Positions 454-15,243 of a DNA stretch of 46,930 nucleotides are shown one piece after another (the stretch's first letter is position 1; every line of letters starts with the position of its first letter). The notes under the pieces are model-generated. The model worked only from the letters and a program-made list of their open reading frames with translations. It ran no database searches and was not told where the DNA came from. Origin of the DNA: Alphaproteobacteria bacterium (lineage in GTDB: Bacteria; Pseudomonadota; Alphaproteobacteria; M2410); assembly GCA_030614785.1 (NCBI GenBank), contig JAUWTJ010000028.1, positions 1 through 46,930 of the forward strand, given 5' to 3'. The position numbers and the translations under genes are program-made.

Positions 454-2253
<1,800 letters not shown>

Positions 2254-2347: not shown

Positions 2348-2508
2348 TTGTGTCACGATCGCATGGATAGTTCTGCTCACGTAAAATAATAAAGTGATAG
2401 GAACTTGCAGGCAAGATCTTGAGGACATTCGCTCTGACCGGCTTGAGGGTCGAGGGTCCTGTTTGATGGCAAGGAACCTTGCCCATAGTTGAAGGACGAA
2501 GACCCGGC

Positions 2509-4659
2509 ATGCGAAAAGGACGTATCTTCACGAGCCTGATCACCTTTCTGGCGGTGTCCTTCCTTTTTTTCGTTGCCTCACCGGTTTCGGCAAAAGCGAC
2601 AGGGGCGGCTCCTGTTGATGCCGAAGCGATGGCAATGGCGTTCTTTCCGATCGCAACGCATATCGGGGCCATGGAAGGCGAGCCACCATCGGCCGCAGTC
2701 TACCAGCGCGGGCGGATTGTTGGCTATTTCCTTTTTACCCGGGATGTTGTCGCTTCAAAGGGATTTTCCGGAAAACCGTTTAATATCGCCCTTGGTCTCG
2801 CCCTTGACGGGACCATTGCCGGCGCGCGCATCATCGAGCAACACGAGCCAATCCTTGTCATCGGGGTAAGTGCGAAGGATCTCGACGCCTTTGTTGCACA
2901 ATATATCGGTCTTGATATTCGCACGCCGGTCAAGGTCGTTCGCACGGTAAGGAACGAAAACGAGGTCGATGCTGTAAGCGGCGCAACTATTTCATCTGTT
3001 GTCCTGAGTGATGCCATTATCCGTTCGGCTCGTGCGGTTGGGCGCGTGCGCGGCGTTTTGGAGGGCGCTGCGATAGACTTCGACAGTTTTACCTCAAGAG
3101 ACTGGAGCTCGCTTGTCGACGACAGGTCCATTGTCTCAAAGAAAATCAGCTATGGACGGATTCAGGCGGAATTGGGCAGCAAGGGCGCGTCGCTCTTTCC
3201 GGTCGGCGCAAGCGAGCCCGAGCCGGACGCACTGGTCTCCGAAGTCTTTGTTGCCCTTGCAACTCCGGCACAGATCGGACGCAACCTTATGGGTGATCTG
3301 GAATTTAACAGCGTGATGGGAGAGCTTGAGGACGGTGATCAGATTATATTCGTGGCCGGAACCGGTCTCTATTCTTTTAAAGGAACGGACTATCGGCGCA
3401 GCGGTTTTTTCGATCGCTTTCAGATCGTGCAGGCCGACAAAACCTACACAGTAAAAACATCTGACTACAGACGCATTGATGAACTGGCTGTGGAGGGACC
3501 TCCAAAACTGCGCGACAAGGCCCTGTTTATTTTGCCAGCAGCAACAGGGTTTGATCCGGCCAAAGAATGGCGCTTCGAGCTGATCATCAAGGGCAGCACG
3601 CCAGAGGGTCGCATCGCCTCGGCAATTATTCCTGTCATCTACGAACTGCCCGAACACTATCGTTTGAAATCAAACAAAACTGAAAAGACACTCTTCGGAT
3701 ACTCGCTGGAGGACATGATCTGGGTTGAGATCTGGCAGGGCCGAATGGTCGATATCATCATAGTCCTTGCCGCCTTGACCTGCCTCACCATCGTTCTTTT
3801 CATGCAAGACAAGATCACGATGAACCGGCATCTTCACAGCCGCATTCGGTTTGGTTTTCTCATCTTCACAACGGTTTGGCTGGGCTGGTATGCCGGAGCA
3901 CAATTGTCTGTTCTCAATGTTCTGACCTTCGCCGAAGCCCTTCGGACAGGATTTGAATGGCAGTTTTTCCTGCTTGAACCTCTGGTCTTTATTCTCTGGT
4001 GCTTCGTTGGCCTGACGCTGCTCTTCTGGGGGCGCGGTGTTTATTGCGGCTGGTTGTGCCCGTTCGGCGCGATGCAGGAGTTGACCAGCAAGATTGCCAA
4101 AGCTCTTAATTTGCCGCAACTCAAAATTCCCTTCGTTATCAATGAAAGACTGTGGACGCTCAAATATGTAGTCTTCCTGCTACTCTTTGCTATCGCTCTG
4201 GGTGACATGACACTGGCGCAAACGCTTTCTGAAATTGAGCCCTTCAAGACGGCGGTGGTTTTGCACTTTATCAGGGACTGGCGGTTTGTTATCTACGCCC
4301 TGCTGTTGCTCAGTACGAGCCTCTTTGTTGAGCGGGCGTTCTGTCGCTATCTTTGTCCTCTCGGTGCCGCACTCGCCATTCCGGCGCGACTTCGTATGTT
4401 CGAATGGCTCCGGCGGCGCTGGATTTGTGGAACCCAATGCGCAATTTGCGCTGGCCATTGTCCGGTCCAGGCCATTCATCCAGACGGACACATCAATCCT
4501 AACGAATGTGTCAACTGCCTCAATTGTCAGGTCCAGTATTTCGATGACCAGGTCTGCCCGACAATGGTCCAACAGAGAAAGCGGCGCGAGAAACTGGCCG
4601 CTTCCCCGGCACCTGACCTGAGTAAAATCCCCAATCCCAAAGGCGAGGTGACCCCGTGA
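2509..4659 (+). CDS. nirI: NirI/NosR-family membrane flavo-iron-sulfur protein
   Basis: A 716-residue polytopic protein of the NosR/NirI family, which supports expression or electron supply of denitrification reductases. A signal peptide occupies about residues 1-28. The periplasmic FMN-binding domain has an SGAT motif with T160 as the likely covalent FMN site. Several membrane spans follow from about residue 405. Two cytoplasmic CxxxCP motifs are at C513/C517 and C612/C616. Two [4Fe-4S] cysteine sets are at C640-C651 and C667-C683. Position divergent from nirS favours NirI over NosR, and no nosZ is in the window. ATG 2509 is preferred over TTG 2479 because a signal peptide begins there. The stop overlaps the next start (GTGA), which indicates translational coupling. 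Confidence 0.9.
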   Translation: MRKGRIFTSLITFLAVSFLFFVASPVSAKATGAAPVDAEAMAMAFFPIATHIGAMEGEPPSAAVYQRGRIVGYFLFTRDVVASKGFSGKPFNIALGLALDGTIAGARIIEQHEPILVIGVSAKDLDAFVAQYIGLDIRTPVKVVRTVRNENEVDAVSGATISSVVLSDAIIRSARAVGRVRGVLEGAAIDFDSFTSRDWSSLVDDRSIVSKKISYGRIQAELGSKGASLFPVGASEPEPDALVSEVFVALATPAQIGRNLMGDLEFNSVMGELEDGDQIIFVAGTGLYSFKGTDYRRSGFFDRFQIVQADKTYTVKTSDYRRIDELAVEGPPKLRDKALFILPAATGFDPAKEWRFELIIKGSTPEGRIASAIIPVIYELPEHYRLKSNKTEKTLFGYSLEDMIWVEIWQGRMVDIIIVLAALTCLTIVLFMQDKITMNRHLHSRIRFGFLIFTTVWLGWYAGAQLSVLNVLTFAEALRTGFEWQFFLLEPLVFILWCFVGLTLLFWGRGVYCGWLCPFGAMQELTSKIAKALNLPQLKIPFVINERLWTLKYVVFLLLFAIALGDMTLAQTLSEIEPFKTAVVLHFIRDWRFVIYALLLLSTSLFVERAFCRYLCPLGAALAIPARLRMFEWLRRRWICGTQCAICAGHCPVQAIHPDGHINPNECVNCLNCQVQYFDDQVCPTMVQQRKRREKLAASPAPDLSKIPNPKGEVTP

Positions 4660-5684
4660 CCCTCACATCAAAGACTGTGACCAGAAGGCGCATGATCGCC
4701 ATATCGGCCGGTTTTGCAGGTTTGGGCGGCGCTGCAGCGCTGAACCAGCTCAGGCCGGGGAGCCAGGGCATGCGGGGCCAAATCGTTATTCATGAGTGGC
4801 GCGGCATTGCGCTCGGCGCGGAAACCTCAATCAAGCTGGCGCATGAAGATCGCAATGAAGTGGTCGCCGTGCTGTCCCGCTGCCGCACAGAAATTGATCG
4901 ACTGGAGGGTATCTTCAGTCTCTATCGTCCAGATTCGGAGATTGTTCGTCTTAACGCCGATGGAGAACTGAAGGGTGCATCGATCGATTTCGAGCGCTGT
5001 CTCGAGGAAGCGCGCCGCGTGAGCATAATGACCGATGGCGCCTTTGACATTACCGTGGCGCCGCTCTGGGACCTTTACGCGCAAGGCGGGACAATAGCGG
5101 AGCGCAGGGTTGATGAAATTCGTTCCACTATAGACTATCGTTCGGTTCATCTGGATCCGGGCCGTATTGCCTTCGAAAGGGATCGAATGGCCATAACACT
5201 TAACGGTATTGCGCAAGGCTATATTACCGACCGTATCGCCGAGCTACTCAGAGAATACGGCTATTCGAGAAGTCTGGTTTCGCTTGGAGAGTTCTGTGCT
5301 CTTGAAGCGCCCGAACCAGGAAGTCCGTGGAAGGTCGGGATTGATGAGCCGGAAATGCAAAGCCAGGAGATTGCTCTCGAGAACGCGGCGCTGGCGACTT
5401 CGAGTGCCGAAGGTCTGGTATTCAAGTCGTCAAGCCAGGTCGATGCCTTGAGGGCAAGCCATCTGATTGATCCGCGGACCGGGAAGGCTTCCCCTCTGTG
5501 GGAGCAAGTCAGTGTGGTCGCGCCTTCCGCAGCGCGCGCAGATGCTTTGTCGACCGGTTTGTCATTCATCGACAAGACCAGGTGGGCGGATATACTGAGC
5601 CGTGCCGGAGCACATTTTGCGCTTGGCCGGGCAGCGGACGGTAAGAGGTTTCGGATTGTATCGGAAACCCGCCTGCAACACTGA
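4656..5684 (+). CDS. nirX: ApbE-family FAD:protein FMN transferase (NirX/NosX-like)
   Basis: A 342-residue ApbE-family protein. Members move FMN from FAD onto threonine of target flavoproteins, and the immediate upstream product NirI has such a site (T160). The N-terminus is a twin-arginine-type signal (RRRMIAISAGFAGLGGAA), so it should act in the periplasm. Visible family blocks are DGAFDITVAPLWDLY, GIAQGYITD, a SLGEFCAL stretch at the usual LGG position, HLIDPRTG, and ARADALSTGLSFI near the C-terminus. The GTG start overlaps the nirI stop. This arrangement matches the nirI/nirX and nosR/nosX pairings known in Paracoccus-type denitrifiers. The change from the usual LGG(N/D) to LGEF is a small departure from consensus. 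Confidence 0.88.
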   Translation: MTLTSKTVTRRRMIAISAGFAGLGGAAALNQLRPGSQGMRGQIVIHEWRGIALGAETSIKLAHEDRNEVVAVLSRCRTEIDRLEGIFSLYRPDSEIVRLNADGELKGASIDFERCLEEARRVSIMTDGAFDITVAPLWDLYAQGGTIAERRVDEIRSTIDYRSVHLDPGRIAFERDRMAITLNGIAQGYITDRIAELLREYGYSRSLVSLGEFCALEAPEPGSPWKVGIDEPEMQSQEIALENAALATSSAEGLVFKSSSQVDALRASHLIDPRTGKASPLWEQVSVVAPSAARADALSTGLSFIDKTRWADILSRAGAHFALGRAADGKRFRIVSETRLQH

Positions 5685-5886: not shown

Positions 5887-5985
5887 AAACGAAGGGAAAA
5901 TTTCATCAAGGCAAGCGGCAGGTCGTCGCAGGTTAGAAAAAAAGGCAGAACTCCGGGGTCGTCAAAAAGGTTGTTCCCGAGGAAA

Positions 5986-5999
5986 TTGACGATGGTCAA
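5986..5999 (+). promoter_or_regulatory. Dnr-type operator upstream of norS
   Basis: TTGACGATGGTCAA is a perfect palindromic box, 88 bases before the norS ATG. If centred at about -41.5, transcription would begin near 6034. The half-sites equal those at the nirS and dnr promoters. Confidence 0.85.
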
Positions 6000-6087
6000 G
6001 GAGGCGTAAAGGTTGCTTCCTATAAATGTACACGGATGTCTGTGCGATTCCCCGCATAGTTTTGGCAGCATTATTGAGGAGAGGGTT

Positions 6088-6627
6088 ATGGCCATACACT
6101 CCCCGTCTGATCGGATTTGGTGGAACAAACCGATCGAAAAGATGGAACTTATCTGGATCGGCATTGCGTTTTGTTGGGGACTATTCATGTTCTGCGCGAT
6201 GATCTGGTGGCATATCTATGGAGAGCAGAATCTCTCGAACGAGACATATAAAACCACGCCGGAATTGTTTGAGTCTCGAACTGAAGCAATGGTCGAAGCC
6301 TACACAGTGCGTGAGGAAGGTGATACGGGCATTCCTGTAGTTCATCCCCCCGCCGGTTCCGATGTCTATCTTCTGGCTCGCCGTTGGGAGTTCTATCCAA
6401 TCCTGGAGCTGGATATGGGGCAGAGCTACCGCATCCACATGTCATCGACAGACTGGCAACACGGGTTCTCTCTTCAGCCTACGAATATCAATCTTCAGAT
6501 TCATCCCGGCTACGAGATGGTGCTGACGATCACGCCTGACTCGTCGGGTGTGTTTAATATTGTCTGTAATGAATTCTGCGGGATCGGTCATCATCAGATG
6601 CTCGGCCGCATCCATGTCGTCGAATAG
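6088..6627 (+). CDS. norS: CuA-containing subunit II of a heme-copper NO reductase (NorS-like)
   Basis: A 179-residue protein with one N-terminal membrane span (about residues 21-44) and a periplasmic cupredoxin domain. The dinuclear CuA site is complete: H125, then C160-x3-C164-x3-H168-x2-M171. It should take electrons from a soluble donor and pass them to the heme-copper subunit encoded 14 bases downstream. Alone it could be a cytochrome oxidase subunit II. The denitrification context, the Dnr box upstream and the odd active site of subunit I favour the NO-reductase role described for norSY-senC (sNOR) clusters of ammonia oxidisers. ATG 6088 is chosen because a GAGGAGAGGG ribosome site precedes it. 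Confidence 0.75.
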   Translation: MAIHSPSDRIWWNKPIEKMELIWIGIAFCWGLFMFCAMIWWHIYGEQNLSNETYKTTPELFESRTEAMVEAYTVREEGDTGIPVVHPPAGSDVYLLARRWEFYPILELDMGQSYRIHMSSTDWQHGFSLQPTNINLQIHPGYEMVLTITPDSSGVFNIVCNEFCGIGHHQMLGRIHVVE

Positions 6628-6641
6628 AGGGTGCACTGAAA

Positions 6642-8327
6642 ATGGCAAACCAAGCTCAATTCCGCACTTGCCCCGAAACGGGTCTGAAAGTCGATCTGGC
6701 TGCGGAAAAACTCATCAAGGTAAACGCAGTTGTCGCTGTGGTCTTTCTGGCAGTAGGCGGGCTTTTCGGTCTGCTGGTTGCTCTGACACGCTGGCCAGCG
6801 GTTCACATTCTTCCTGACTCGTGGTTCTACCTTGCGCTCACGGCGCACGGTGCTGATGTCCTCTTGTTCTGGATCATCTTTTTCGAAATGGCGATGCTCT
6901 ATTTCTGTTCGGCGATCTTGCTGAATAGCCGCCTTGCCGCGCCCAAACTCGCGTGGGGCGCGTTCTGGCTCATGATTGCCGGAGCTGTCATGGCGAATGT
7001 CGCCGTGCTCCAGGGTAATTCGAGTGTGATGTTCACATCCTATGTGCCAATGCAGGCCGCACCGCACTTCTATCTGGGACTGATCCTGTTTGCAGTCGGG
7101 ATACTGGTCGGTCTCTGCTGCTTCTTCGGCACGCTGGTCATCGCCAAGGATGAAAAGACCTATGAGGGCTCCGTCCCTCTGGTTACCTTCGGGGCAATTA
7201 CGGCTGCCATTATCGCGGTCTTTACTGTCGCATGCGGGGCGATCATCCTGATCCCGACCTTCCTGTGGTCCGTTGGTCTGATCCCGACTATTGATCCCTT
7301 GATCTACAAGATTGTCTGGTGGGGCTTCGGACACGCGTCGCAACAAATCAACGTCGCGGTCCATGTGTCGATCTGGTATGCCATCGCGGCCATGACCTTC
7401 GGGGCCAAACCCTTGTCGGAGAAAGTCTCCCGCACGGCTTTCCTGATGTACATTCTCTTCCTGCAACTGGCTTCGGCGCACCATCTTCTCGTCGAACCGG
7501 GCGTCAGTTCCGAATGGAAAATCTTCAATACCAGCTATGCCATGTATCTCGCCGTTGTCGGTTCCATGGTTCACGGTATGACTATTCCTGGTGCTATTGA
7601 GGCGGCTCAGCGCAAGCGTGGCCTCACCAATGGTATCTGGGAATGGCTGCGCAAGGCACCGTGGAGCAATCCGGCTTTCGCAGGTATGTTTATGTCACTT
7701 GTCATGTTTGGCTTCCTTGGCGGCATCTCCGGCGTCATCCTGGGGACCGAGCAGCTTAACATCATCATGCACAACACGGTCTATGTGCCGGGTCACTTCC
7801 ATGCCACGGTGGTGGCCGGGACGACCCTGACATTTATGGCTTTCACCTACCCGGTCATCAACTTGATCTTCCGTAAGGAAATCATTTGGCCAAAAGTGGC
7901 TCAGTATCAGCCCTATGTTTTCGGGCTCGGTGTTATGGGGATTTCTGTCTTCATGATGGGTGCAGGGACCCTCGGTGTTGCAAGACGTCACTGGGATATC
8001 ACCTTCGCTGATGCGACGCTGAGCTTTGAATATCCCCCAATGGCGATCATGTTAATGGGGCTCAATGGTCTGGCGGCCATACTGGCTGCAGCGGGCGGTC
8101 TGATGTATGTCTCCGTTGTTATCGCATCGATCTGGAAAGGCAAGCCGCGTGAAGTTGTGGCCGTCTCTGAACCAACTCCGGAAGCTGAAGCGCTTACAAG
8201 CTACGGCAGCGCGGGAACCTTGCACCTTCCTGGTACGGCAATTCTGGTCGGGATTTTCTTCCTCAGCTTTGTCCTGTACTACTTCATCAATTGGAAGTAT
8301 CTGGCGACGGTCTGGCCGCTAAGCTAG
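6642..8327 (+). CDS. norY: Heme-copper subunit I lacking the cross-linked tyrosine (NorY/sNOR-like NO reductase)
   Basis: A 561-residue, 12-span-type heme-copper oxidoreductase subunit. Metal ligands are visible: H69 for the low-spin heme, H231 with the H280-H281 pair for the active-site metal, and H385/H387 for the high-spin and low-spin hemes (GHFHAT). In oxygen reductases the first copper ligand sits in a HPEVY-type motif, with tyrosine four residues on. Here the string is HASQQ, so glutamine (Q235) replaces that tyrosine. Loss of the tyrosine is expected of NO reductases. cNOR glutamates around the metal (HLWVE) are also absent, so this is neither norB nor an ordinary oxidase. The gene lies between a CuA subunit and senC and is the core of the operon. 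The NO-reductase assignment is inference from motif and context. Confidence 0.75.
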   Translation: MANQAQFRTCPETGLKVDLAAEKLIKVNAVVAVVFLAVGGLFGLLVALTRWPAVHILPDSWFYLALTAHGADVLLFWIIFFEMAMLYFCSAILLNSRLAAPKLAWGAFWLMIAGAVMANVAVLQGNSSVMFTSYVPMQAAPHFYLGLILFAVGILVGLCCFFGTLVIAKDEKTYEGSVPLVTFGAITAAIIAVFTVACGAIILIPTFLWSVGLIPTIDPLIYKIVWWGFGHASQQINVAVHVSIWYAIAAMTFGAKPLSEKVSRTAFLMYILFLQLASAHHLLVEPGVSSEWKIFNTSYAMYLAVVGSMVHGMTIPGAIEAAQRKRGLTNGIWEWLRKAPWSNPAFAGMFMSLVMFGFLGGISGVILGTEQLNIIMHNTVYVPGHFHATVVAGTTLTFMAFTYPVINLIFRKEIIWPKVAQYQPYVFGLGVMGISVFMMGAGTLGVARRHWDITFADATLSFEYPPMAIMLMGLNGLAAILAAAGGLMYVSVVIASIWKGKPREVVAVSEPTPEAEALTSYGSAGTLHLPGTAILVGIFFLSFVLYYFINWKYLATVWPLS

Positions 8328-8344: not shown

Positions 8345-9229
8345 GTGCGTAAGTTTTTTCGTCTCAAGTGTATTCTCTCCATGGTGGCCGGCACTGTCTT
8401 CGTGACAATGCCGGCCATCGGCATGGAGGGGCATGGCGACGCCGCGAAATCCGGCAACACAATGCACGTGGTGAACGAGCATGCCATGGGGGGCGGAAAA
8501 TTTGATCGTGACCAGGCACTGAAAATCTCCAGTGCCGCCATAGGCAACAAGCTACCTGACTACAGTTTTACCGATTCCACGGGGCAGCCGGTCTCCTTGT
8601 CGGATTTTTCCGGCCGGCCGATCCTGATTAATCTCATTTACACCAGCTGTATGCACACCTGTCCGATGATTGTGGAAACCCTGGCTCGATCAGTGAAAGT
8701 CGCGCGCGATGCCCTTGGCGACGATAGCTTTACCGTCCTCACCATCGGTTTTGATACAAGGAACGACAGCGTCAAGCGGATGCGCACCTATGCCAAAGAT
8801 CGCGGGGTCGGCGATGACAACTGGCTTCTGCTGAGCGGTGACGAGGCCACTATAACGGCGCTGACAAGTGATCTGGGTTTTCAGTACCGCGCCGCGCCGT
8901 ATGGCTTCGATCATCTCGCACAGGTGAGCGTAATCGATGAAAGCAGCGTTGTTTATCGCCAGATTTACGGGGTCAAACTGACGGCCCCGGTCGTGGTCGA
9001 GCCCCTGAAGCAACTGGTCTTCGGGCGCAAGACGGGCTATACCAGCTTCTCCGGTCTGGCCAATCAGGTAAGATTGTTCTGCACAATTTATGATCCGAAT
9101 ACCGGTCGATATAGATTCGATTTTTCGTTTATTATTTCCGTTTTTATGGGCCTCACGTTTCTGCTCGGTGCGGGCGTTCTTTTCGTACGGACATGGATAT
9201 CCATCAGAGATCGGGAAGGATCTGCTTGA
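8345..9229 (+). CDS. senC: SCO1/SenC-family copper chaperone
   Basis: A 294-residue thioredoxin-fold protein that delivers copper to, or reduces, the CuA site of subunit II proteins. It has an N-terminal hydrophobic signal or anchor (about residues 8-25), the copper-binding C102-MHT-C106 motif and the conserved distal H190 (FDHLAQV). An additional membrane span lies near the C-terminus (about 262-282). The stretch at about 27-50 contains several His and Met residues (MEGHG, MHVVNEHAMGG) and may also bind copper. The GTG start lies 17 bases after norY. The order CuA subunit, subunit I, senC repeats the norSY-senC arrangement. Confidence 0.88.
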   Translation: MRKFFRLKCILSMVAGTVFVTMPAIGMEGHGDAAKSGNTMHVVNEHAMGGGKFDRDQALKISSAAIGNKLPDYSFTDSTGQPVSLSDFSGRPILINLIYTSCMHTCPMIVETLARSVKVARDALGDDSFTVLTIGFDTRNDSVKRMRTYAKDRGVGDDNWLLLSGDEATITALTSDLGFQYRAAPYGFDHLAQVSVIDESSVVYRQIYGVKLTAPVVVEPLKQLVFGRKTGYTSFSGLANQVRLFCTIYDPNTGRYRFDFSFIISVFMGLTFLLGAGVLFVRTWISIRDREGSA

Positions 9230-9289: not shown

Positions 9290-10870
9290 GTGAAACGTTA
9301 CCTCAAAAGAGGTTTCCTCAAGGCCGGGTCGTGGGCAGACGAGGTATTTGGGCCGACTCTAAATCCCCTGTCACAATTAGGGGCATTGGGGTTTTTCTTC
9401 TACTGGATCGTCGCGGCCAGCGGCATCTACCTCTATATCGTATTTGATACGTCGGTCGTCGGGGTCTACGAGTCCATTGAATATCTGACCCATGATCAAT
9501 GGTATCTCGGCGGCATCATGCGCTCCTTTCATCGCTACGCATCAGACGCGATGGTGCTCTTTATGAGCCTGCATATCCTCCACGAATATTCGTTCGACCG
9601 CTACAAGGGCGCACGCGCCTTTTCCTGGTTTACCGGCGTACCGGTTCTCTGGTTGCTTTATGCCGCCGGCATCAGCGGCTACTGGCTGGTCTGGGATGAG
9701 CTGGCACAATATATCGCCATCGGCACAGCCGAGTGGCTCGACTGGTTGCCGTTCTTTGGCGAGCCGGTGGCGCGGAATTTCCTGACGCCGGATGCGATGG
9801 ACGATCGCTTTTTCTCACTGCTCATTTTCATGCATATTTTCCTGCCGCTCTTTCTGCTTTTTGTTTTGTGGCTTCACATAACGAGGATTTCAAAGCCGAA
9901 GATCAATCCGCCCCGCATCCTCGCCTTCGGCATGATGGCCATGATGTTTGTCCTGTCCCTTGTTTATCCCGCAATCAGCCATGATGCCGCCGATCTCGCG
10001 ATGGTTCCCGGAGAACTCAGGATCGACTGGTTTTATCTCATCATTTATCCAATGCTCGACAAAGTGCCAGCCGGTTTCATGTGGGCCCTGGCGATCGGAG
10101 GGTCGATCGGCCTGGTGGGCATGGCGCTGGACCCCCGTTTCAGGAGGCCCGGCGTCGCCGAGGTCAATCTGGAAAGCTGCAATGGCTGCGAGCGCTGCAT
10201 GAACGATTGTCCCTACGCGGCCATCAGCATGGAGCGGCGAACAGATGGTCAGCCTTTTGCCAGGGAACCCGTCGTCAATGCGTCGAACTGCGTCGGTTGC
10301 GGGATTTGTGTCGGGGCGTGTCCGACCTCCATGCCGTTCAGGACAGCAGCCCCGCTGATACCCGGGATTGATCTTGCGGACAGAAAGCTCGCCGATCTTC
10401 GCGGCGAAATAGATGCCCTGGCCGCGGGCGAGCCACCGCAGGTCATCGCGTTCAATTGCCAGTACAACAAGAGCTTTGCATCAGGCGTTCCCGATGGTGT
10501 GAGCCTTGTCTCGTTGCCGTGCATTGGCATGTTACCTCCGCCTTTCATTGATTACGTTCTGTCTCGCGGCAAGGCAAAGGGCGTCTTTCTTGCCGGCTGT
10601 GGTACCTCGGATTGTGAAAATCGCCTCGGCGCCCAGTGGTCGGCAGATCGTCTGGCACGAAAACGCGATCCCTACCTTCGGGCCCGTGTCCCCGAAGAGC
10701 GGCTCGAAGCCTTCTGGCCGGGATCGGCCGATCCTGGCGGTGTGCGAAGCGCTCTTGAAGGCTTCACCTCTCGGATAAGCGCAATGCCTGACCTGCAGCA
10801 ACACAAGCGAGACCTCAAGATGGGGGTCCGGTTGCCACAGGACGAAGCTGCAGAGGAGGTCACACCATGA
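9290..10870 (+). CDS. Cytochrome b / 2x[4Fe-4S] ferredoxin / MvhD-like triple fusion
   Basis: A 526-residue fusion. Residues 1-280 form a diheme cytochrome b: H81-x13-H95 and H182-x13-H196 are the two heme-ligand pairs, and DWFY at 246-249 stands where bc complexes carry PEWY. Residues 295-346 hold two [4Fe-4S] motifs (C297, C300, C303, C307 and C334, C337, C340, C344). Residues 384-450 resemble the MvhD/FlpD hydrogenase delta domain, with C390, C411, C437 and C442. It probably moves electrons between the quinone pool and a cytoplasmic iron-sulfur partner. Start GTG 9290 is preferred because AAGGG lies upstream. It shares the operon with norSY-senC and overlaps the next gene by ATGA. No hydrogenase or Hdr subunits are nearby. 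Confidence 0.8.
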   Translation: MKRYLKRGFLKAGSWADEVFGPTLNPLSQLGALGFFFYWIVAASGIYLYIVFDTSVVGVYESIEYLTHDQWYLGGIMRSFHRYASDAMVLFMSLHILHEYSFDRYKGARAFSWFTGVPVLWLLYAAGISGYWLVWDELAQYIAIGTAEWLDWLPFFGEPVARNFLTPDAMDDRFFSLLIFMHIFLPLFLLFVLWLHITRISKPKINPPRILAFGMMAMMFVLSLVYPAISHDAADLAMVPGELRIDWFYLIIYPMLDKVPAGFMWALAIGGSIGLVGMALDPRFRRPGVAEVNLESCNGCERCMNDCPYAAISMERRTDGQPFAREPVVNASNCVGCGICVGACPTSMPFRTAAPLIPGIDLADRKLADLRGEIDALAAGEPPQVIAFNCQYNKSFASGVPDGVSLVSLPCIGMLPPPFIDYVLSRGKAKGVFLAGCGTSDCENRLGAQWSADRLARKRDPYLRARVPEERLEAFWPGSADPGGVRSALEGFTSRISAMPDLQQHKRDLKMGVRLPQDEAAEEVTP

Positions 10871-11379
10871 CCCGGAAAATTATTGGGCAGGGGCTTTTCT
10901 ATATACTCATTGCGGTGGCGCTCGGTTATTTGTCCGCCTCACCAACCTGGACCCACCTGCCCGAAGATCAGGCCGTGATCAAAATAAGCTTCTCCCATGG
11001 GGCAGAGCGCAAGATCCCCTGTCACAAGAGGACGAGGGAGGAATTGATGGCGCTTGCGCCCAACATGCGCAATCCCGTCAGCTGCACAAGGGAACGCTTG
11101 CCAGTCTATGTCGAGATTAATATCGATGGCGATACGATTATCGCCGAGGGTCTTCCGCCCATGGGTCTGGCGAAGGACGGGCAATCAAAGATTTATCGCC
11201 GTATTGCCGTCGCTCCCGGCGCGCACCGCCTGGAAATCGGTATCAGGGATACTGACCGCGCTTCCGGCTTTGACTATGAACTTCGAAAGACTGTCGATCT
11301 TGTCTCGAGGCAAAATCTGATTGTGGATTTCGAAGGCGACAAGGGAATCTTTCTACAGAATGAAAGGATGGCGCCATGA
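10867..11379 (+). CDS. Unknown anchored or exported protein of the NO reductase operon
   Basis: A 170-residue protein whose ATG overlaps the stop of the cytochrome b fusion and whose stop overlaps the hemerythrin start (both ATGA). It is thus translationally coupled on both sides. An N-terminal hydrophobic segment (about residues 5-24) indicates a signal anchor. The remainder looks like a beta-rich domain with two cysteines in KIPCHKR and NPVSCTRE and a hydrophobic, strand-like C-terminal half. I recognise no family. It could stand in the place of the orf1 found after senC in norSY-senC-orf1 clusters, but I cannot establish homology by eye. Confidence 0.7.
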   Translation: MTRKIIGQGLFYILIAVALGYLSASPTWTHLPEDQAVIKISFSHGAERKIPCHKRTREELMALAPNMRNPVSCTRERLPVYVEINIDGDTIIAEGLPPMGLAKDGQSKIYRRIAVAPGAHRLEIGIRDTDRASGFDYELRKTVDLVSRQNLIVDFEGDKGIFLQNERMAP

Positions 11380-11789
11380 CACTCCTGCAATGGAAAGATC
11401 AATATTCGCTGGGAAATGAAGCGCTGGACCATGAGCACAAGGAGCTGATCCGCCTCATCAACGCTGTTCATGGAGAGATTGAACGCGAGAGCGAGGAAGA
11501 CAATCAAGCTCGGATCCTGGGTGGTCTTAGCGAAATTCTGAATGCTGTCAGCGCACACTTCGCACTTGAGGAGAAGGAAATGCAAGCATTGGCCTATCGC
11601 GAATTTCCGACCCATAAGGCGGATCACGAAAAACTGCTCGATGAGATTTGCGATCTGATCGAGACCGTTGAGGAAACCGCAGTCCGCGATATTCGCGAAG
11701 GCCTGTCAGCGCTCCTCGAAGCCTGGTTCAGTATTCATTTTCAGACCTTCGACCGCGACTTCCATCTCGCCATCAGACCGTCAAATTAG
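11376..11789 (+). CDS. Bacteriohemerythrin
   Basis: A 137-residue single-domain hemerythrin, a four-helix bundle holding a non-heme diiron site that binds oxygen and, in some members, NO. Candidate ligands are all present: H19/H21 in DHEHKEL, H61 and E65 in HFALEEKEM, H80 and H84 in HKADHEKLL, and H121 with D126 (HFQTFD). No signal peptide is seen, so it is cytoplasmic. It is the last gene of the norSY operon, coupled by an ATGA overlap. It may buffer or deliver NO or oxygen beside the NO reductase. That role is inference from location. Confidence 0.9.
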   Translation: MTLLQWKDQYSLGNEALDHEHKELIRLINAVHGEIERESEEDNQARILGGLSEILNAVSAHFALEEKEMQALAYREFPTHKADHEKLLDEICDLIETVEETAVRDIREGLSALLEAWFSIHFQTFDRDFHLAIRPSN

Positions 11790-12641: not shown

Positions 12642-13033
12642 TCATCCGGCGTCCCTGATAGACCATCCAGAATGGGGCAATCCGGGCGGTCGTCTCCATG
12701 ACAGGTTTTAACCAATGTGGAGAGTGTTTCTCTGAGGCCCTTGAGGTCTTCAATCTTTTGATCAATTTCCTCAAGCCTGTGAGTTGCCAGTGCTTTGACA
12801 CTTGCGCTGGACCGGTGTTTGTCCTCATAGAGGGACAGAAGCTGGCGGCATTCCTCAACGCCAAAGCCCAGAGACCGGGAGCGCTTCAGAAACCGCAACT
12901 TGTGAATATGCGCTGCATCGTAGGTGCGATACCCGTTATCCTCTCGATCTGCCAATACGAGACCGATGTCCTCATAGTAACGGATGGTCTTGGACGGTAG
13001 ACCGGATTTTTCGGAAGCTTCGCCAATGTTCAC
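12626..13033 (-). CDS. cueR: MerR-family copper-responsive regulator CueR
   Basis: A 135-residue MerR-family activator. Residues 1-70 form the winged-helix DNA-binding domain (NIGEASEKSGLPSKTIRYYE). A long dimer helix follows, then the metal loop C111-HGDDRPD-C119, the spacing that binds Cu(I) in CueR. The GTG start at 13033 overlaps the copA stop (GTGA), and translation from there gives the normal N-terminus. An ATG at 13063 would add ten unlikely residues inside copA. Expression as the second gene of copA-cueR would make the response auto-regulated. Its target is the dyad at 15271-15289. Confidence 0.92.
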   Translation of the reverse strand: MNIGEASEKSGLPSKTIRYYEDIGLVLADREDNGYRTYDAAHIHKLRFLKRSRSLGFGVEECRQLLSLYEDKHRSSASVKALATHRLEEIDQKIEDLKGLRETLSTLVKTCHGDDRPDCPILDGLSGTPDDQDPF

Positions 13034-15243
13034 TTTGCATCCTCCCCAAGTTTCGGCTTCCATCGCCGCAGTAGTAGTGAGTTTGATACCACACTTATGG
13101 AGCTCATGGCCATGGCTGCAGCGGCAAAGGCCGGCGATAGGAAGCCGAGCGCCGCCAGCGGGATGCCGATGACATTATAGACAAAAGCCCAGCCCAGGTT
13201 TTGTCTGATCTTGCGTGCCGTCGCGCGTGAAATGTCGATAGCCGCCGGAACCAGAAGTGGATCAGGGCGCATCAGGGCAATGCTTGCCGTTTCAATCGCG
13301 ACATCGGTGCCGCCGCCCATGGCAATTCCGACGTCCGCAGATGCAAGAGCAGGCGCATCATTGACCCCGTCACCTACCATGGCGGTGACAGCGCCTTCCG
13401 AACGAAGCAACGACAGAATATCCAGCTTGTCCTCCGGCTTGAGCCCGCCGCGAATATCATCAAGCCCCAGCGGTTTGCCGATGGCCTCGGCGGTGGCTTG
13501 CGTATCGCCGGACAGGAGAAGGACGCGGTGGCCTCGGGCCGTCAGGTGATGAATGGCAGTAGACGATCCGGGCCGAACCTGGTCGGCAATAAAGATCTCA
13601 CCGATGAGCGCGCCATTGTTGGCGACGAAGACCCGGGTTGCTCCTGGCTGGCTTGTATCGTCCACTGGCGCGGCGATCCCGAGGCGCTCAAGAAGTTTCA
13701 GATTGCCGATGCCGATAGCGCGTCCGCTGCTCCTTGCGGTGACACCTTCTCCGATAAAATTTTCAAAATCAGAAATGGCGGCAAGACCAAGGCCGCGCGC
13801 GTCTGCTTCTTCACGGATCGCCTTGCCCAGAAGATGTTCGCTTGAAGCCTGAACAGAAGCTGCCGCAGCGAGAACGTCACTTTCGCTTGCACCATGGCTC
13901 ACCACTCGGACAACTTTTGGTTTGCCAGCAGTAAGCGTTCCGGTCTTGTCGAAGGCGATGTGTGTCAGATGGGCGGCGCGCTCAAGCGAGTCGATATCCT
14001 TGATGAGGATGCCGCTTTTGGCTGCCGCTCCGAGCCCGGCGACAAGCGCCGTCGGGGTCGCAAGGCCAAGTGCGCAGGGGCAGGCGATCACAAGAACCGC
14101 AACGGACGCAATGAGCGCCTGCTCGAACGTACCCCCGGTGAAATACCAGCCAGCGAAGGTAAGGATCGAAATCACAATAACCGCCGGGACAAAAATTGAC
14201 GAAACGCGGTCGACAAGCCGCTCAATGGGTGCCTTCGAGCCCTGCGCTCGCTCGACCAGATCGATGATTTTAGCCAGCGTGGATGTATCTGCGCCGGCGG
14301 TTGCGGTGCAGGTCACGGCGCCGCTTCCATTCAGCGATCCGCCATAGATCTGGCTGCCTGCCTCGACAGAAACCGGCAGACTTTCGCCGGTGATGTGCGA
14401 GGCGTCAATCTCCGACCGGCCTTCGAAGACGGTGCAGTCGACCGGCACCCGCTCGCCCGGACGCACCAGGAGAATGTCACCGGCAATGACATCAGCAGCA
14501 GAAATTTCTACAAAGGCCCCACCGCGTTTCACCCGCGCGGTTTCCGGGCGCAGCGCCAGCAACATGCGAATGGCATCGCTCGCGCCGCGCTTTGCTCGTG
14601 ACTCCAGCCACTTGCCTGTCAGCACGAGCGTAATGATGACGGCGGAGGCTTCAAAGTAGAGATGCGGGGCGGTGCCTTCAGGCGTAAGGGCGATCTGAAG
14701 CAGTGAGTAGACAAAAGCCGCGCTGGTTCCCAGCGAGACCAGCACATCCATATTGCTGGTCCCCGACCTCAGGGACAGGAACGCACCCCTGTAAAACCGA
14801 AACCCGATCCAGAACTGGACCGGTGCGGCCAGCGCAAGCTGCACCAGTGGCGGCAACATGAACCCGGAGCCTGGAATCATCTGCGCGACAAGTGGGAGGG
14901 TCAACAGGACTGCAAAAATGAGATGCAGACTCTCCCGGGACTTACCCTTTTGCTCTGCCTCATCGGGTGCAGTGGCCCACTCCGCGCCTTCATAGCCCGC
15001 GTCATGCAGGGCGGCCTGAAGCGCCTCAATCGAGAGCGCGGGGCCGGCGCTGCGCACATCGCCGCGTTCCAGTGCAAAATTCACCGAGGCCCGGTCAACA
15101 CCCTCGACCGCACTGAGTGCCTTTTCGGCAGTCCGCGCGCAATTTGCACAATTCATGCCGCTGATTCTAAGGCGAAAATTCTGCGTGTTGCCCTCGTTGA
15201 CCGGGGTATCCATGCCAGTGTCTTCCAGTGCCAGGCTCATCAT
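13030..15243 (-). CDS. copA: Cu(I)-exporting P1B-type ATPase CopA
   Basis: A 737-residue pump that exports Cu(I) from the cytoplasm. It has one N-terminal heavy-metal domain (MNCANC, C32/C35), the TGES actuator motif (about 285-288), the transmembrane CPC ion site (C388-P-C390), the phosphorylated D432 in DKTGTLT, GDGVNDAP, and a C-terminal MSSISVVSNS helix typical of Cu(I) pumps. The usual SEHP motif reads SEHLL here (H470 kept, proline lost). An AGGAG site lies directly before ATG 15243. The promoter is CueR-type. With cueR it protects the cell from copper, which may matter because the adjacent NO reductase needs copper. Confidence 0.95.
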   Translation of the reverse strand: MMSLALEDTGMDTPVNEGNTQNFRLRISGMNCANCARTAEKALSAVEGVDRASVNFALERGDVRSAGPALSIEALQAALHDAGYEGAEWATAPDEAEQKGKSRESLHLIFAVLLTLPLVAQMIPGSGFMLPPLVQLALAAPVQFWIGFRFYRGAFLSLRSGTSNMDVLVSLGTSAAFVYSLLQIALTPEGTAPHLYFEASAVIITLVLTGKWLESRAKRGASDAIRMLLALRPETARVKRGGAFVEISAADVIAGDILLVRPGERVPVDCTVFEGRSEIDASHITGESLPVSVEAGSQIYGGSLNGSGAVTCTATAGADTSTLAKIIDLVERAQGSKAPIERLVDRVSSIFVPAVIVISILTFAGWYFTGGTFEQALIASVAVLVIACPCALGLATPTALVAGLGAAAKSGILIKDIDSLERAAHLTHIAFDKTGTLTAGKPKVVRVVSHGASESDVLAAAASVQASSEHLLGKAIREEADARGLGLAAISDFENFIGEGVTARSSGRAIGIGNLKLLERLGIAAPVDDTSQPGATRVFVANNGALIGEIFIADQVRPGSSTAIHHLTARGHRVLLLSGDTQATAEAIGKPLGLDDIRGGLKPEDKLDILSLLRSEGAVTAMVGDGVNDAPALASADVGIAMGGGTDVAIETASIALMRPDPLLVPAAIDISRATARKIRQNLGWAFVYNVIGIPLAALGFLSPAFAAAAMAMSSISVVSNSLLLRRWKPKLGEDAK

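Follow-up and report, generated by a model that had tools for sequence, protein, structure and literature searches.

The window, i.e., the whole 46,930-nucleotide stretch of an alphaproteobacterial contig that was analysed, harbours a nitric oxide (NO) reductase gene cluster on its forward strand. It includes a CuA-type subunit II of NO reductase (6013..6627), in which the CuA ligands H150, C185, E187, C189, H193 and M196 are all kept, a B-type heme-copper subunit I (6642..8327) recognised by Pfam and by alignment to ba3 oxidase, with Gln235 at the position of the active-site Tyr, and a SCO1/SenC protein of the CuA maturation type with a C-terminal membrane anchor (8345..9229; Pfam). The latter lies upstream of a 526-residue protein (9290..10870) that unites a cytochrome b core, two [4Fe-4S] motifs and a FlpD/MvhD domain, as indicated by the open reading frame, Pfam, conservation and AlphaFold. 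Downstream of this fusion lie H170 (10867..11379), a protein outside any Pfam family with an N-terminal membrane helix and a beta-sandwich that is presumably periplasmic, and a bacteriohemerythrin (11376..11789; Pfam, NCBIfam), the gene with which the cluster usually ends. Directly upstream of the NO reductase, and not beside nosZ, a cytochrome cd1 nitrite reductase gene (454-2199, reverse strand) diverges from genes for a NosR-like FMN-binding protein (2479-4659, forward) and ApbE (4656-5684, forward); of 55 other loci, 7 have a NosR-like gene in the vicinity of the fusion. The gene for a copper P-type ATPase of the CopA type (13030-15243, reverse strand) also lies near the cluster, but is probably not part of it since it was found in none of the 55 other informative loci.

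The fusion is encoded by a single open frame of 526 codons, with a GTG start at 9290 and a stop at 10870. Its six-helix diheme cytochrome b core (residues 22-285; 9353..10144), assigned on the basis of Pfam, structural alignment (VIA-align) and invariant histidines, carries the heme ligands H81, H95, H182 and H196 as two H-x13-H pairs (81/95 and 182/196), and is followed by two [4Fe-4S] motifs (residues 289-347; 10154..10330; CxxCxxCxxxC at 297 and 334) and by the FlpD/MvhD domain with C390, C411, C437 and C442 (residues 387-507; 10448..10810). All three parts score above the respective Pfam gathering thresholds: Cytochrome_B at residues 22-200 (2.9e-16), Fer4-type motifs at 289-347 (about 1e-10) and FlpD at 399-499 (1.2e-11; 45.2 bits against a gathering score of 22.3). 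Furthermore, phmmer aligns the C-terminal domain to MvhD of the solved methanogen HdrABC-MvhAGD complexes, three of the four cysteines (C411, C437 and C442) falling directly on MvhD cysteines. Across 80 aligned sequences, the four histidines, the eight ferredoxin cysteines and D246-W247 of the ‘DWFY’ motif (10025..10030) are invariant, while the four C-terminal cysteines are 99-100% conserved. All 16 presumed cofactor ligands are therefore invariant or nearly so, which is conservation far beyond chance. The first-pass annotation, made from the sequence of this stretch, had described precisely such a triple fusion in one chain, with these histidine, cysteine and DWFY motifs and an MvhD/FlpD-like C-terminus, and each of these elements was recovered at its place in a frame that is unbroken between the parts. 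A frameshift or chance origin is ruled out by the unbroken frame and the conservation in 80 sequences, and an oddity of one metagenome-assembled genome by the 250 related stretches found in the genome collection.

Structure prediction yielded a confident model (AlphaFold with a 62-sequence alignment; pLDDT 90.2, pTM 0.86) with a bc1-like core. In a VIA-align comparison, for which only residues 10-285 served as query, this region matched cytochrome b of the bc1 complex (best Z 24.0, rmsd 2.9 over 261 residues), in agreement with Foldseek. As the match extends through helix F, the fusion retains the ef loop, which makes the Qo pocket in bc1, and the structural match suggests that the invariant Asp-Trp occupies the place of the Glu-Trp of PEWY in a Qo-like pocket on the p-side. 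By homology to b6/bc1, it follows that His81 and His182 would bind heme bL, and His95 and His196 heme bH. Lysine and arginine counts of 5, 3, 4 and 3 in the predicted cytosolic loops, against 0, 1 and 1 in the periplasmic ones, place the Fe-S domains on the cytosolic side, beside heme bH, by the positive-inside rule. This topology agrees with the earlier proposal that a soluble partner in the cytosol exchanges electrons with the membrane.

The resemblance to the cytochrome b of bc1/b6f complexes (Z about 24) comprises helices A-F, two b hemes and the Qo-like cd and ef loops. The differences are, however, considerable: the fusion has IDWFY (Asp-Trp-Phe-Tyr) in place of PEWY, shows no match to the C-terminal domain PF00032 at E<=1, and instead adds the cytosolic Fe-S/FlpD domains, while a Pfam search of its neighbourhood and operon returned neither a Rieske protein nor cytochrome c1/f. 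A normal bc1 set is encoded on another contig of the same genome, so the fusion does not replace bc1.

The eNOR enzymes are a recently recognised type of NO reductase and make the greenhouse gas N2O; to our knowledge, little is known about their electron supply and assembly. Judged by its sequence, the reductase next to the fusion is probably an eNOR rather than a NorSY/sNOR. Gln235 of subunit I aligns on the cross-linked Tyr237 of ba3 oxidase (GHASQQ versus GHPIVY) and is invariant in 66/66 aligned rows and in 21 of 22 further loci, the motif pattern being unmatched in the remaining one. The ligands of heme and CuB (H69, H231, H280, H281, H385 and H387) are invariant as well. Gln at the active-site Tyr position is the diagnostic residue of eNOR, and Asn that of sNOR (PMC8756737). 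A cupredoxin (CuA) subunit II adjoins subunit I, an arrangement expected of eNOR. The assignment of the fusion to an NO reductase operon was upheld, whereas the norSY label attached to it is probably wrong, given Gln235 in place of Asn. Family membership suggests NO-reductase activity, and because subunit II keeps CuA, the electrons of the enzyme should come from a cytochrome c or cupredoxin in the periplasm. A norSY-senC-orf1 cluster is on record for ammonia oxidisers (PMC4940428); the subunit I query remained unmatched in amoA-bearing genomes, which by itself shows nothing about the identity of the fusion with orf1.

The link between fusion and reductase was assessed in the gene neighbourhoods of 80 relatives from the genome collection, denominators being the informative loci, and by co-occurrence in 337 genomes of the class. 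Subunit I lies upstream of the fusion in 64/66 loci; the gene immediately before the fusion is SCO in 73/77 and the one immediately after it is H170 in 67/73, and hemerythrin is present in 51/71. In many loci, subunit I and SCO are about 1 kb apart, and in one of these (L010) the intervening space is occupied by the heme O synthase CyoE. Among the 337 genomes, all 19 with subunit I also carry the fusion, and 19 of the 20 with the fusion also carry subunit I (Fisher p 3.9e-30). The fusion is thus almost strictly tied to the eNOR-type reductase. A plasmid search retrieved one copy, from Defluviimonas, with unchanged gene order; besides Defluviimonas, Pelagibius marinus and Thioalkalivibrio denitrificans are culturable, non-pathogenic bacteria that have the fusion gene.

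The constant downstream neighbour, H170, matches no Pfam, NCBIfam or PHROG family and no PDB fold at E<0.001; a kinship with FixH or CtaG likewise found no match in these family and fold searches. Its model is of high confidence (pLDDT 95), and the protein represents a new, conserved, membrane-anchored beta-sandwich family, presumably periplasmic, that shows no cofactor site. C52 and C73 are invariant in 59 sequences and both lost in locus L139, which rules them out as an obligate copper or thiol site.

Apart from bc1/b6f, several known systems share parts with the fusion. The Fer4-Fer4-FlpD order is that of HdrA2, the HdrA-MvhD fusion, residues 289-499 falling on positions 571-771 of its profile; nevertheless, the score amounts to 62.9 bits of 1100 and is restricted to this C-terminal third, the flavin-binding HdrA part being absent and a membrane cytochrome b standing in its place. 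With MvhD/VhuD of the HdrABC-MvhAGD complexes the fusion shares the FlpD fold and cysteines, as a fused domain here and a separate subunit there. The first-pass annotation had stated that MvhD normally links hydrogenase or formate dehydrogenase to HdrA, none of which is present here. The absence of HdrA stood, as the HdrA2 profile gave only short, weak matches in the source genome besides the fusion itself, and that genome has only one FlpD; the view of MvhD was too narrow, since in Sporomusa ovata MvhD, whose membrane-integral partner was not identified, is the proposed membrane linker of a methylene-THF reductase (PMC9430772). The same profile detected no HdrA-like QmoA/QmoB of a Qmo complex in the genome. 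A search for HdrB/HdrC returned three CCG proteins, including a lone two-CCG protein beside an EF-G gene, which is probably LutA, and a GlcF/GlpC-like protein adjoining a FAD_binding_4 gene. The best NCBIfam match of the cytochrome b part is ExtP, which together with ExtQ forms the b-type cytochromes of the selenite/tellurite operon, but the equivalog cut-off is missed (92.5 of 290 bits) and there is no Ext operon.

The domain combination is not wholly unseen, since one appendix entry already records it: RME88945.1 from Chloroflexi, with cytochrome b6, DMSOR-beta-like Fe-S and FlpD domains, is listed without discussion in Table A3 of the eNOR source (PMC8756737), and by that table entry, on which rather than on sequence the comparison is based, it carries a C1 cytochrome domain besides. 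A literature search, chiefly of open-licence sources, found no functional study of the fusion, and an earlier mention in recent work on NOR diversity is possible; NCBI labels the Defluviimonas plasmid copy only as ‘cytochrome b N-terminal domain-containing protein’. Taken together, the fusion is a widespread, eNOR-linked, modular electron-transfer protein built from known parts.

Its modularity is most evident in the beta-type loci, which encode a second cytochrome b fusion whose cytosolic half binds [2Fe-2S], FAD and NAD(P), like BenC/NqrF, and which sits at the same operon place as the Fer4-FlpD (FD) fusion. Among 24 loci surveyed (L137-L140 and L151-L170), thirteen carry both types (L137, L156-L160, L162-L167 and L169; the stretch ends within the FD copy of L164), eight the FD type alone within the stretch (L138-L140, L151-L153, L161 and L168) and two the NAD(P)H type alone (L154 and L155), while L170 is cut off before the fusion place. 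In six of these that were examined genome-wide, G715 (a single contig, 99% complete) and G784 (87% complete) have solely the NAD(P)H type, G707 and G966 solely the FD type, and G801 and G729 both, the NAD(P)H type lying 12-16 kb away. A tree built from the cytochrome b cores groups the NAD(P)H type into one clade (support 100/99), so that a single swap explains it. The two core types have the heme ligands and the p-side residues W135-D136, E148, N163 and D246-W247 in common.

On this evidence, our tentative preference, which we hold at slightly less than an even chance, is that the fusion is a module devoted to the eNOR cluster, through which electrons from the cytosol enter the membrane. A putative cytosolic reductant, either a ferredoxin or a flavoprotein that docks to FlpD, would reduce the FlpD cluster, NAD(P)H taking this part in the variant with the reductase module; from there, the two [4Fe-4S] clusters would relay electrons to heme bH, transfer from bH to heme bL would carry them across the membrane, and the conserved Asp-Trp pocket on the p-side would be their exit. 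Since this pocket is Qo-like, quinone is the first candidate for the acceptor, and it would likeliest hand electrons on through bc1 and cytochrome c to the CuA enzyme eNOR. The single chain with all its ligands conserved, the bc1-like fold including the ef loop, the cytosolic Fe-S side, the co-occurrence and the constant gene order are consistent with such a module, as are the p-side residues common to both types and the CuA centre of subunit II, through which a periplasmic carrier should feed eNOR. The direction of electron flow, from the cytosol into the membrane, is moderately supported by the domain swapping: since the core in this operon can bear an NAD(P)H-oxidising module in place of Fer4-FlpD, and in G715 bears no other, both would deliver cytosolic electrons to bH. 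Nevertheless, a general quinone reductase needs no constant SCO, H170 and eNOR neighbours, the genome already has a normal bc1, the donor is given as candidates only, and reductase modules are reversible in principle.

The constancy of these neighbours gives weight to a maturation function, which is possible, though doubtful: cytosolic electrons would reduce either Cu(II), yielding Cu(I), or the disulfide of SCO, for loading CuA and CuB of eNOR, with H170 as the periplasmic partner, by analogy to CcoG of the cbb3 oxidase and to FRE/STEAP metalloreductases, in which cytosolic NADPH reduces through transmembrane hemes b. A copper or SCO target is a close second to quinone as acceptor because the SCO and H170 neighbours are constant and precedents exist in CcoG, an Fe-S cupric reductase whose gene accompanies cbb3 oxidase, and in NADPH-heme cupric reductases (PMC7558416). 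The presence of CyoE in the operon fits such a role, and the normal bc1 makes an extra respiratory branch unnecessary. The analogy extends only to the way of working, cytosolic electrons reaching a metal via Fe-S or FAD and membrane hemes; folds and domains differ, and the polyferredoxin and the Ig-like periplasmic domain of CcoG have no Pfam match in the fusion. Furthermore, the p-side pocket has a Qo-like Asp-Trp and no obvious copper site, the loss of both H170 cysteines in L139 argues against an obligate thiol or copper carrier, and no such protein is listed for the CuA-NOR clusters of Bacillus that include SenC (PMC3475470).

A flow opposite to the favoured electron input, in which quinol electrons would reach a soluble acceptor in the cytosol, such as a flavoprotein, by way of bL, bH and the clusters, would balance redox during NO respiration without bifurcation; the retained Qo-like pocket accommodates it, and in the model for Sporomusa, MvhD conducts electrons from ubiquinone to HdrA (PMC9430772). 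We consider this unlikely, as no acceptor protein is encoded nearby, no HdrA was found in the genome, and in the NAD(P)H variant quinol would have to serve as the reductant for NAD(P)+, an uphill reaction unless additional driving force is available. For bifurcation, textbook potentials indicate that the driving force from NO reduction would be sufficient. At the p-side Asp-Trp site, one electron of quinol would go to CuA-eNOR and NO, and the other would be driven uphill, by way of heme bL, heme bH and the Fe-S clusters, to an Fe-S or flavin partner in the cytosol (ferredoxin, or NAD+ in the NAD(P)H-module variant), so that cytosolic reducing power would be gained at the expense of NO reduction. 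Such bifurcation at the quinol site, an idea raised in the first-pass annotation, is nonetheless highly improbable despite the bc1-like core with its ef loop, because neither a Rieske protein nor any other mobile one-electron acceptor of the p-side is encoded with the fusion, H170 offers no cofactor site, a normal bc1 exists elsewhere in the genome, and the module exchange is explained more simply by linear input.

The occurrence of the fusion in every eNOR genome of the 337-genome sample makes it a handle on the electron supply and assembly of eNOR, and the naturally occurring substitution of the NAD(P)H reductase for Fer4-FlpD offers an existing experimental system for the question of electron direction. 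The direct connection of an MvhD-type domain to a membrane cytochrome b also represents the kind of link postulated for the acetogen with the unidentified membrane-integral MvhD partner (PMC9430772). In annotation, operons of this kind are easily mistaken for those of cytochrome c oxidase or sNOR.

Two further features of the related loci may be recorded. After the cluster, beta/gamma loci encode a second, short COX1-like protein (459-477 residues), often together with a CtaA-like protein; examples are L137:7124-8557 (reverse strand), L139:11490-12869 (forward), L087:7520-8923 (forward) and most beta-type loci. It matches PF00115 weakly and no NCBIfam model, and its CuB His-His pair seems unconserved between copies. 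Finally, two loci carry two Fer4-FlpD cytochrome b fusions in one operon (L055:3710-5311 and 5968-7509; L139:7581-9164 and 9390-10997), the ExtQ model matching the helix E/F region of the L055 paralogue, and such pairs may form hetero-oligomers.
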